From: Verrucomicrobiota bacterium
GTDB taxonomy: Bacteria; Verrucomicrobiota; Verrucomicrobiia; Palsa-1439
Length of the DNA stretch: 59,681 nt
Direction: 5' to 3'
NCBI GenBank assembly: GCA_016871575.1
Contig: VHCW01000018.1
Coordinates: 1-59,681 of the forward strand
The first letter of the stretch is position 1. Every line of letters starts with the position of its first letter. Of the stretch, positions 30,141 through 33,680 are shown one piece after another. The notes below the pieces were generated by a model. The model did no database searches and had not been told where the DNA came from. It worked only from the letters and a program-made list of their open reading frames with translations. The position numbers and the translations under genes are program-made.

Positions 30141-31136
30141 ATGATTCTCACATTGGGACCGCTCAGCATTTCACCGCCCTTGTTCCTTGCGCCGTTGGCT
30201 GGGTACACGAATTTGCCGTTTCGGCTGCTGCTGCGTGAACGGGGCGGGCTTGGCCTGTGCACCACCGATCTGGTCAACGCCCGTTCCCTTCTGGAACAAC
30301 ATCCCAAGGCGCTCGAATTGATTCGCACCGCCCCCGATGACCACCCTTTGGCGGTCCAACTCTACGGCGCAAAACCGGAAGAACTCCGCGATGCCGCCGT
30401 GTGGCTCGAACAGCAGGGCTACAATGCCGTGGACATCAACATGGGCTGTCCCGTCCGCAAGGTCTGCCGCACCGGCAGCGGCTCGGCGTTGCTCGACAAC
30501 ATCGCCGCCGCGCAACGCCTTGTCAGCGTTGTCGTGAACGCCGTCCGCATTCCCGTCACCTGCAAGGTCCGGCTCGGCACTCCCGAATTGGCGCGCGCGC
30601 TCGATGACGCCGGAGCCGCTGGAATTACCGTTCACGGACGAACTCGACAACAAGGCTTCGCGGGAAACGTCAATCTTGCCGGCATCCGCGCGCTCGCACA
30701 AGCTGTCCGACGCATACCGGTCATTGGCAATGGCGACATCACGACGCCGCAGGACGCGAAACGAATGCTCGACGAAACCGGCTGCGCGGGAATCGCCATC
30801 GGACGCGGCGCATTCTACAACCCGTGGATTTTCCAGCAGACCGCCCGTTACCTGGCGACCGGCGAAACGCTGCCCGAACCGGACTTTGAGCAGCGTGTCG
30901 CGTTCATGGCGCGACACCTCGACCGGATGATCGAATTGTACGGCGAGTTTCACGCCTGCCGTCAATTCCGCAAGGTCGCGCTCGCGTACATCAAACCGTT
31001 CGGTCCCGTCACGGAGTTTCGGCGGCGCGTGGTGCAGTTGGAATCCCGGAGCGAGTTCTCAGAAATTCTCGATGCCTACCGCCAATGGCGGGAACCGCGG
31101 CTCAAATCTTCATCCGCCGCCGCAAATCCGCGCTGA
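30141..31136 (+). CDS. dusB: tRNA-dihydrouridine synthase
   Basis: This 331-residue FMN-dependent TIM-barrel enzyme reduces uridines in the tRNA D loop. It shows PLFLAPLAGYTNLPFR, HPLAVQLYGAKPEELRDAA, the catalytic cysteine region VDINMGCPVRKVCRTGSGSALL, VTCKVRLG, GITVHGRTRQQGF and IPVIGNGDI, followed by GIAIGRGAFYNPWIF and the C-terminal helical domain. This arrangement matches DusB. The 3' end overlaps the convergent dapF-like gene by 35 bp, so their transcripts are complementary at the ends. Confidence 0.93.
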   Translation: MILTLGPLSISPPLFLAPLAGYTNLPFRLLLRERGGLGLCTTDLVNARSLLEQHPKALELIRTAPDDHPLAVQLYGAKPEELRDAAVWLEQQGYNAVDINMGCPVRKVCRTGSGSALLDNIAAAQRLVSVVVNAVRIPVTCKVRLGTPELARALDDAGAAGITVHGRTRQQGFAGNVNLAGIRALAQAVRRIPVIGNGDITTPQDAKRMLDETGCAGIAIGRGAFYNPWIFQQTARYLATGETLPEPDFEQRVAFMARHLDRMIELYGEFHACRQFRKVALAYIKPFGPVTEFRRRVVQLESRSEFSEILDAYRQWREPRLKSSSAAANPR

Positions 31137-31941
31137 ATCTCCCGGTGCAAACTTCCTCCACGGGACCGGTCATCACGAGGTTCAGTGACGGATCGAGTTC
31201 TATCGTCAGGTTGCCGCCTTCCATGTGGACAGTCACGTTGCCGTCCACCAATCCCTTGTCGTAACAAGCCACCGCGACTGCGCATGACGACGAACCGCTG
31301 GCCAGCGTATGGCCTGCGCCGCGTTCCCAGATCAACGCCCGCACGTCGCCGCGCCCCAACACCTGCGCAAACTGCACGTTCGTCCGCTTCGGGAATGCCG
31401 CGTGATTCTCGATCAACGGGCCGAGCTTGAACAAGTCCACCGTCGCAAGATCATCCACGATGGTCACGCAATGCGGGTTGCCGACCGACAACGATGTCAC
31501 GGCCAGCGTCTGTCCGCCGACTTCCAACCGCGTCAGCTTTCGGTCAATCACCGCCTGTCCCATGTCCACCCGGACCGCCACGCACCGGCCTTGCTTCAGA
31601 ATCAACCTCGACCGCACCACGCCGCCGAGCGTGTGAATGCTAAACTCCGTCTTCTTCGTGTAACCGTGGTCGAAAAGAAACTTCGAGTAAATCCGCAGCC
31701 CGTTGCCGGACTTTTCCGCTTCCGAGCCGTCGGGATTGAGGATGCGCAACGCGAAGTCCGTCCCCTTCCCTTTCGCCGAAACGTTCAACAGAATGCCGTC
31801 GGAACCGACACCGGTGTTGCGGTGACAGATGGCGCGAATCCGCTCCTGCGTCAGCTTGTACGGCAAGCGCGCGGCGTCCATGACAAGGTAATCGTTGCCC
31901 AGCCCGTGCGACCGCACAAAATCAACATGCTCTTGTTTCAT
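31102..31941 (-). CDS. dapF: Diaminopimelate epimerase family protein with one catalytic cysteine replaced
   Basis: This 279-residue protein has the DapF double fold: HGLGNDYLVMD near the start, GVGSDGILL, an N-P-D-G-S-E-A-E block, GNPHCVTIVDD and ERGAGHTLASGSSSCA. DapF interconverts LL- and meso-diaminopimelate with two cysteines. The second cysteine is present (SGSSSC), but the first, expected in GNGxRC, is replaced: the sequence reads SGNGLRIYSKFL. It may be a variant epimerase or a related racemase. The start ATG 31941 fits family length; no ribosome site or promoter is visible. The sequence upstream is a tandem repeat array. Confidence 0.82.
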   Translation of the reverse strand: MKQEHVDFVRSHGLGNDYLVMDAARLPYKLTQERIRAICHRNTGVGSDGILLNVSAKGKGTDFALRILNPDGSEAEKSGNGLRIYSKFLFDHGYTKKTEFSIHTLGGVVRSRLILKQGRCVAVRVDMGQAVIDRKLTRLEVGGQTLAVTSLSVGNPHCVTIVDDLATVDLFKLGPLIENHAAFPKRTNVQFAQVLGRGDVRALIWERGAGHTLASGSSSCAVAVACYDKGLVDGNVTVHMEGGNLTIELDPSLNLVMTGPVEEVCTGRFSADLRRRMKI

Positions 31942-31988
31942 GGCGTTGAGGAAAGCACAAACTCGCCCCGTCGGCAAGCCCGCGCGCG

Positions 31989-32303
31989 GAACAGCTTTTC
32001 CCCCGACGGAAAAGTGCGGGCACGGAACCGTTTTGTGTGTGCCCGAAAAGATTTTGTGGGCGCACACCACCGCGACGAGTCACAACAAAACAGCGGCGGG
32101 TCTGCGCGCCGGCGTTTTGTGTGTCCACAAAACGATCGGGGGTCTGCACGGCGTGGTTTTGTGTGTCCACGGAACGATTCCGTGCATACCCGAAACGGTG
32201 TCGGGTCTGCCCGAAACGGCGGCGTGGATGCCCGAAGGCATTTTGTGTGTCCCCGAAATGGTTTTGTGCCTTCACAAAATGATTTTGTGTCTCGACATAA
32301 TGG
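31989..32303. repeat. Degenerate 21-bp tandem repeat array (15 units)
   Basis: The array has fifteen consecutive 21-bp units without gaps. The commonest form begins TTTTGTGTGTCC and ends with CGAAA plus two or three variable bases (units at 32031, 32115, 32157, 32241, 32262 and 32283). Other units keep only the centre, such as GGGTCTGCCCGAAACGG. The period is a multiple of three and the unit rarely makes stops, so several frames stay open on both strands. On the minus strand the repeat spells a variable heptapeptide of PFRGHTK type. Some units hold GTTTTGTG/CACAAAAC palindromes. No start signal supports translation. It lies between dapF and a broken methylase gene. Confidence 0.85.
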
Positions 32304-32407
32304 CCGTGTTTGCAGCGGGTTAAGCTGGTTTGAGACCAAAACCGCCGTTTCTGCCCCCCGGAAAGAAGGATTGCCATCAAAAAGCCTTCCCGCTACACTC
32401 TGCCGAC

Positions 32408-32490
32408 ATGAACCGGCTTTACTACGGTGACAACCTTGCGGTGTTGCGGGACAAGTCGAGTTTTCCCGACGCCTGCGTTGACCTCAGGCT
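32408..32490 (+). pseudogene. N-terminal fragment of a site-specific DNA methyltransferase
   Basis: The frame starts MNRLYYGDNLAVLRD and continues CVDLRLR. The first 27 residues match the start of adenine-specific DNA methylases of restriction-modification systems (LYYGDNL, then a VDL strand), but the expected catalytic DPPFN motif is missing because the frame turns into unrelated sequence after CVDL. The ORF stops at 32564. Only the extreme 5' end of the gene survives. Confidence 0.6.
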
Positions 32491-32743
32491 GCGGACGTTC
32501 AGGAAAGCTATAGACCCATCGATCATATCGTGGATGCGGAGGCAACGCATGCAAGAAACCCGTTGAACAATGCTTTGCGACCGTATGTTGATAGATTCTT
32601 TGGTGATATCGCCTCGCAAAACGCAATTGATGTGATCGAGCAGTGCTATGTCTGGACATCAGCGTGAGCGATCCGCCTACGCAATCAGAAGCGCAAGACA
32701 TCCTGAACAAGCTCAATGAACTGATCAACGCGTTGAAGCGGTA
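32491..32743 (+). pseudogene. Decayed coding fragments of low GC content
   Basis: This stretch is visibly richer in A and T than its surroundings and holds broken frames. One reads YRPIDHIVDAEATHARN and ALRPYVDRFFGDIASQNAID to a stop at about 32667. Another reads LDISVSDPPTQSEAQD and LNKLNELINALKR to a stop at 32743. These look like real protein tails out of frame with each other, but I do not recognise the families. With the methylase start next to it, this may be the remains of a restriction-modification locus. Confidence 0.4.
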
Positions 32744-32760
32744 GTCGTCAGCAAAGTTCT

Positions 32761-33008: not shown

Positions 33009-33680
33009 ATGCCAACGCTGCGCTACGAAAAGAAAGCGTTCCAAAATGGAGCGCGCATCATTGCTGGGGTGGATGAAGCCGGACGCGGTCCGCTGGCGGG
33101 GCCGGTGGTGGCGGCGGCTGTTGTTTTGCCGTGCGAGTTCCGGCACAGGACGCTCAATGACTCCAAACAGTTGCGCGAGGAACAGCGCGAGGAGATTTAC
33201 ATCGAGTTGACGGGGCGCTCCGACATCGCATGGGCTGTCGGCATTTCCTCGGTGGAGATCATCGAGCAGTACAACATTCTCCGCGCGACGGAACGCGCCA
33301 TGTACATTGCCGTCAGCGGGCTGACGGCGCAACCCGATCACGTCTTGGTGGACGGACATCGTTGCCGGGCGATCCTGATCAAGCAGACCTCGATCATCAA
33401 GGGGGATTGTAAAAGTTTCTCCATTGCTGCCGCCAGCGTCATTGCCAAGGTCACACGCGACCGGATGATGCTCGCGCTGGACCAGTCGTATCCACAGTAC
33501 GGTTTTGCCAAACACAAGGGATATGGCACGCCCGAACACCTCGCGGCCATCACGGCATTCGGCCCCTGCCCGATTCACCGGCGCACGTTTGCGCCCATAC
33601 GCAATGTTCTCGAACCTGTTCAACTGGATCTTCTCGCGCTGGAAACGGCAGCCGACGGACCCGCGCCAGTGGAAGCGTGA
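33009..33680 (+). CDS. rnhB: Ribonuclease HII
   Basis: This 223-residue endonuclease cleaves RNA in RNA-DNA hybrids and single ribonucleotides in DNA. The family signature IAGVDEAGRGPLAGPVVAAA carries the first catalytic Asp and Glu. LNDSKQLREEQRE, the third acidic residue in HVLVDGHRCRA, the KGDCKSFSIAAASVIAKVTRDRMM block and YGFAKHKGYGTPEH follow. It runs a little past the usual end (LDLLALETAADGPAPVEA), and this tail overlaps the yraN start by 77 nt in another frame. No ribosome site precedes the ATG, which fits a leaderless transcript. Confidence 0.95.
   Translation: MPTLRYEKKAFQNGARIIAGVDEAGRGPLAGPVVAAAVVLPCEFRHRTLNDSKQLREEQREEIYIELTGRSDIAWAVGISSVEIIEQYNILRATERAMYIAVSGLTAQPDHVLVDGHRCRAILIKQTSIIKGDCKSFSIAAASVIAKVTRDRMMLALDQSYPQYGFAKHKGYGTPEHLAAITAFGPCPIHRRTFAPIRNVLEPVQLDLLALETAADGPAPVEA

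Follow-up and report, generated by a model that had tools for sequence, protein, structure and literature searches.

A module made up of about 7 to 19 tandem 21-bp units, which are often dyad-symmetric and particular to each locus, and of a small orphan gene directly downstream is found in Verrucomicrobiota. The segment from 31987 to 32376 of the window (the whole stretch of 59,681 nucleotides that was analysed), judging from its sequence, very probably belongs to a decayed copy of this multi-copy gene module, of which it is the cis part. The best explanation overall, in which we have moderate confidence, is that the window holds a decayed module copy and that the array acts as the cis-element of the gene.

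The array in the window and its copies in the same genome

Fifteen 21-bp frames fit the segment 31989-32303 with zero indels. Identity at a lag of 21 is 0.52 over this segment, whereas 2,000 dinucleotide shuffles gave 0.25±0.026 with a maximum of 0.35, and the segment tops all lag-21 regions in the 59.7-kb window. Identity is also elevated at lags of 42, 63, and 84, and at 42 and 84 it exceeds that at 21. Tandem Repeats Finder splits the array into three pieces. The sequence-only reading had counted fifteen units in exact phase; the fifteen frames do fit, but the first one or two of them (31989-32030) are the left end of the element and the array proper runs from about 32010 or 32031 to 32303. 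The columns that had been described as almost fixed are so (G5 in 14/15 units, G7 in 14/15, and C14 in 15/15), and the dyads that had been noticed within units are real because the columns are symmetric by column permutation (p=0.005). The array is not a CRISPR, as had been stated, since its units abut and spacers are absent. It folds with z of -3.3 and -3.4 on the two strands and had no match among Rfam models. The features of the element and of its surroundings are listed in Table 1.

Table 1. Coordinates of the element and of neighbouring features in the window
Feature	Position	Strand	Description and basis
dapF (diaminopimelate epimerase)	31102..31941	-	Intact, divergent upstream neighbour; Pfam PF01678, 5e-52
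Left end of element	31987..32030	+	Hairpin AACAGCTTTTCC-N6-GGAAAAG (CTTTTCC-N6-GGAAAAG) and linker; 89% over 70 bp, including the first units, to G000:C46:8984-9053
Degenerate tandem array	32010..32303	+	Period 21 bp, about 13-14 units, dyad-symmetric, TTTTGTG-N4-CACAAAA-N3 type; autocorrelation against shuffles, tandem repeat finder, dyad test, folding
Conserved right end of element	32304..32376	+	Common to the C46 and C20 copies
Sigma-70-like promoter TTGCCA-N17-TACACT	32371..32399	+	Sequence; ATCAAAAAGCCTTCCCGCTACAC identical in the C20 copy
52-aa ORF MNRLYYGDNLAVLR...	32408..32566	+	Truncated
Partner-gene relic, C-terminus ISVSDPPTQSEAQDILNKLNELINALKR and stop	32658..32744	+	Identity of 61-64% to the partner genes that follow the family-A genes of L275, L261, and L262 and to the relic behind the C20 array
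rnhB (ribonuclease HII)	33009..33680	+	Intact downstream neighbour; Pfam PF01351, 2e-37

The -10 and start region of the promoter-like site is seen again on contig C90 and in G001, a congener. The 52-aa ORF at 32408 may resemble the N-terminus of a DNA methylase. It has no Pfam methylase match, and the relic at 32658-32744 is part of the array module, so the broken methylase and the restriction-modification context that had been proposed are unconfirmed. It appears that the window copy has decayed, keeping an array remnant and only the tail of the partner gene, with the main gene lost; its assignment to the module is based on one 26-residue relic and on the common ends.

Other copies are present in the genome of the window (G000). 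The copy on C46 consists of about three units between the left end AACAGCTTTTCC...GGAAAAG and the right end AACCGCC-TTTCTG-CCCC-GAAAGAAG-ATTGCC, both ends being as in the window, and the similarity of the two left ends breaks off sharply at AACAGC. As single-stranded DNA the C46 copy folds strongly (z -4.1). The C20 copy, which was found with a covariance model built from the window and C46 copies, is 82% identical to the window across 32312-32410 (about 100 bp), and, despite the common right end, its 21-bp units bear no relation to the units in the window. A model of the right end led to a further array on C170 with units that are again unrelated; against the class this model gave chance level except in its own genome. 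The copies in the window, on C46, and on C20 have defined ends and lie at unrelated sites. In all, this genome contains six or more arrays or remnants of arrays, and its relatives contain dozens, which agree in period and position.

This recurrence bears on the null of the sequence-only reading, that slippage of a simple repeat left the array as a one-off relic. The window copy is degenerate and has lost its gene, as such a relic might, but like arrays are widespread and the columns are symmetric rather than randomly variable, and the one-off relic is refuted for practical purposes. The suggestion that this is an array of sites and not simple slippage holds up.

Two dispersed palindromes were seen next to arrays. 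One, TGTGGGGCAGGTTTG.AACCTGCC...GCAGGTTGCAAACCTGCTCCACATTG, adjoins the C20 and C35 arrays (L071 1358-1432 and L165 14066-14140), and the other, GGAGGGACGCGCTCCGTCGCGTCC...CGGCCACGACGGAGCGTG.CCCTCC, flanks 21-bp arrays in two genomes (L165 14181-14252 and 14477-14548; L197 about 1256-1318). On C170 (L167), an identical sequence of about 54 bp, TTAACCCCCCTGCTGGCGCCGTTGCGAAGCCCCTCTGAAAAGCAATTTCTTATCAT, occurs four times (at about 362, 3342, 4991, and 5047) and cuts genes without homology. These repeats resemble an assembly linker and, therefore, contig C170 may be chimeric.

Survey by period and the genes behind the arrays

BLAST of the array against 38 relatives and a search of 286 class genomes with the two-copy element model gave matches in the genome of the window only. 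The exact unit pattern had 58 scattered matches in 84,980 genomes and none of those inspected was in a comparable array; in a Bacteroidia genome an unrelated dispersed repeat contains the same 18-mer. Sequence searches return only the genome of origin because the unit sequences are not conserved. Since sequence search fails, arrays were sought by autocorrelation in stretches that amount to 1.28 Mb from the same genome, 0.8 Mb from G006, which is a member of its family, and 0.19 Mb from G001. The strong degenerate arrays were mostly of period 21 or its multiple 42, and these are on C18 (the window), C20, C35, and C170, on C1, C3, and C4 of G006, and at L174 and L175 of G001. The exceptions were a repeat of 18 bp at the end of a contig in G001 and a 41-bp array on C19, which is strong and degenerate and has a period near four helical turns (L149 13788-14156). 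No period-21 array was found among other loci of the class (87 kb). In 430 kb of random loci from other bacteria, the arrays had scattered periods of 11 to 27 bp and, where checked, did not adjoin genes of the two families described below. Intergenic degenerate arrays of 22-23 bp in Bacteroidota (L043 7709-7846, L024 2706-2859, and L016 6612-6809) also do not adjoin such genes.

The C3 array of G006 precedes a gene for a protein of 236 aa (P0001) that has no Pfam match. Homologs of this gene, which we call family A, are present in 22 of the 286 class genomes. Thirty family-A loci were read and 21 came from a phylum-wide profile search, several being repeats, which gives about 44 distinct loci; these come from ten or more families of the class and from one genome outside it (G391). 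A period-21 array is upstream of about 29 of the 44. About one third of the loci are without a clear array, some of these being cut by contig ends or being fragmentary matches. Downstream of family-A genes a score of 0.5 was seldom reached, and the sole period-21 case there was coding sequence. An intact family-A gene with its array is also present on C24 of the genome of the window (L258). Family-A proteins are about 210-240 aa long and have the motif Y-[TN]-x-[AS]-I-G-x-x-L-G-I.

A second family, B, of about 210 aa, is represented by the orphan gene P0002 that follows the C4 array of G006. Arrays are upstream at all seven family-B loci, two of the seven being one recent duplicate. Profile comparison showed no homology between families A and B, and neither had a match above cut-off in Pfam, NCBIfam, or PADLOC; the orphan families carry no Pfam, NCBIfam, PHROGs, or PADLOC annotation. 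Family A has no noteworthy relative in the PDB. A viral or plasmid origin was considered and rejected, family-A homologs being absent from phage collections, plasmids, and IMG/VR. The arrays have about 7-19 units with a median of 13.7, and the distance from the array end to the start codon has a median of about 80 nt and a minimum of 10 nt or overlap.

Downstream of the family-A genes in L249, L251, L252, L253, and L271 there is a second conserved gene family with the motif CDLLxPHxDSGLKWxDxxNPQPxD, while the partner in L262 has instead a collagen-like GPPGPQGPPG stretch. Arrays with a period of 16 bp, a multiple of 8 bp, were seen upstream of family-A genes in L257, where such an array replaces the 21-bp array, and in L264, where it is alongside one.

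Symmetry and turnover of locus-specific units

Units inside one array are about 57% alike. Between loci, with free rotation and strand, the best identity of consensus units is 0.482 compared to 0.480 when shuffled, and the arrays compared had no amino-acid or nucleotide motif in common. When tested by column permutation, 18 of 29 arrays have a dyad-symmetric unit profile (Fisher p about 1e-17), and the other 11 have no significant dyad. Covariation within units is weak, with a Stouffer z of 1.7 (p 0.047). Arrays fold beyond shuffles and about equally on the two strands (mean z -3.9 and -3.7). A 7-4-7-3 hairpin as the universal unit was ruled out, stem and loop sizes differing between arrays.

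It had been suggested that the array could encode a variable heptapeptide, and this can be extended to an upstream ORF of heptapeptide repeats that is translationally coupled to the next gene. Most arrays do have at least one open forward frame, which often ends between -4 and +25 nt from the gene start. However, a synonymous excess was not found in any frame and the two strands are alike (1.49 and 1.51), several arrays as delimited have stops in all forward frames, and third codon positions in the window are among the most conserved columns. No peptide motif is shared; one that was apparent by eye (x-G-L-P-E-T-V) was ruled out by profile, codon, and frame tests. Folding that is equal on both strands together with the lack of synonymous bias favours symmetry at the DNA level over coding. 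The arrays are probably not protein-coding, and we regard the coupled ORF as very unlikely.

Two paralogous loci in G215, L250 and L272, encode near-identical proteins and their flanks are 86% and 91% identical, whereas the arrays in between are unrelated and the leftmost unit of L272 alone remains of the L250 type. Similarly, the window has left units in common with C46; with C20 it has in common the right end but not the array. A whole unit in G006, consisting of left end, array, gene, and a terminator-like hairpin with a T-run, is present twice at unrelated sites (L300 and L305) with no difference over about 1.08-1.2 kb, and this copying is recent. No target-site duplication was seen by eye at the boundaries of the window copy, of C46, or of L300 and L305. 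Taken together, these comparisons indicate that the module is copied as a block, apparently as a whole transcription unit, and that the array is later rewritten internally, the unit sequences being replaced while the period, the approximate unit number, the position, and the symmetry are retained.

Internal replacement that leaves old units at the edges, as at the leftmost unit of L272 and at the left ends of the window and C46, is also what would be seen if the array were a selfish or neutral satellite, that is, a functionless, hairpin-prone 21-bp minisatellite that hitch-hikes on a mobile gene cassette and changes by slippage and unequal exchange. The internal degeneracy of the arrays agrees with this, and the stronger identity at lags of 42 and 84 in the window is expected from block duplication. 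On the other hand, the period of exactly 21 bp, the limited spread in unit number, and the upstream-only position persist across families while the unit sequence changes, the columns are symmetric, and arrays in other bacteria have various other periods. The satellite is the third option and we consider it improbable.

The main rival explanation is transcription of the array into a leader or into a separate tandem-hairpin RNA, which either restrains the downstream protein in the manner of type III toxin-antitoxin systems or controls translation. The short distance to the start codon leaves scant room for a promoter at some loci, folding is far above that of shuffles, there is a single gene per array, and the general layout agrees with that of type III systems (PMC8860590). 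Against this, the equal folding of both strands is what DNA dyads would give, only 2 of 29 arrays are separated from their gene by a terminator-like site, no toxin or defence model matches the proteins, and near-identical proteins are found beside unrelated arrays. We therefore consider a transcribed hairpin array to be unlikely, if less so than the satellite.

Returning to the array as the cis-element of the downstream gene, the mechanism can be proposed only tentatively. Two helical turns per unit combined with dyad symmetry would align numerous similar sites along one face of the DNA. These sites may serve dimers of a protein that reads shape and symmetry more than sequence, or of one that co-varies with the array. 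The near-identical genes with unrelated arrays make sequence-specific recognition by the gene product itself unlikely. Occupancy of the array would set or insulate the expression of the gene, and the units would turn over through satellite-like internal exchange, as a result of which the edge units would retain the old type. A more speculative proposal, which we find rather doubtful, is that each copy of the orphan gene has a self-renewing phased dyad array of about 14 units that serves as a locus-specific address. Its sequence would be free and periodically replaced, selection would be on period, copy number, and symmetry, and a regulator or a guide-like partner would read the structure or the identity of the array.

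Motif and homology searches will miss a cis-element that is set by its period, copy number, symmetry, and position and not by its sequence. The recurrence of such arrays across Verrucomicrobiota beside unannotated orphan families provides a concrete handle on these genes, the near-identical paralogs with unrelated arrays are natural swap experiments, and the pattern suggests satellite-like turnover under constraint in bacteria.

Comparison with known systems

Iterons and operator arrays, such as those of plasmid origins and phased activator sites, are direct repeats two helical turns apart with dyads, and they have sequence-conserved units that are read by one cognate protein. The arrays described here are like them in helical phasing (period 21) and in dyads (18 of 29) but differ because the unit is particular to each locus, as in L250 and L272, no initiator gene is nearby, and family A is absent from plasmid and phage collections. 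Heptanucleotide repeats, VNTR minisatellites, and the 22-, 23-, and 41-bp repeats of Porphyromonas are degenerate intergenic tandem repeats of short period. We know of no fixed gene association or symmetry in these, whereas here a period of 21 is held across families. CRISPR arrays are likewise tandem and adjoin genes, but here there are no spacers, the units are variable and contiguous, and no cas genes were seen nearby.

In the type III toxin-antitoxin systems (ToxIN, CptIN, and TenpIN) a tandem array likewise directly precedes a single small gene, and the two have the same orientation. Criteria for these systems include an intrinsic terminator between the repeats and the gene (PMC8860590). 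In the present module there is no regular terminator (2 of 29), folding is strand-symmetric, the proteins of families A and B have no match to a ToxN-, CptN-, or TenpN-type endoribonuclease in Pfam, NCBIfam, or PADLOC, and the units are unrelated even beside near-identical proteins. REP, BIME, and MITE palindromes, including the GTAG/CGTC-tagged REPs (PMC3733652), are dispersed and intergenic and have a common sequence genome-wide. The element is similar in that its ends are hairpins and copies of the module are at unrelated sites, and it differs in that only period, position, and symmetry are in common while the sequence is locus-specific.

The sequence-only reading had taken the array to be alone and without described kin. 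The first part has to be revised since a gene association and locus-specific units were found around like arrays; the second part stands in that no earlier description was found in the open literature, subscription journals being outside the search. The defining features of the element fit no known family. Its period, number, position, and symmetry are conserved without its sequence being so, and an element of this kind, whose function we infer, is apparently undescribed.
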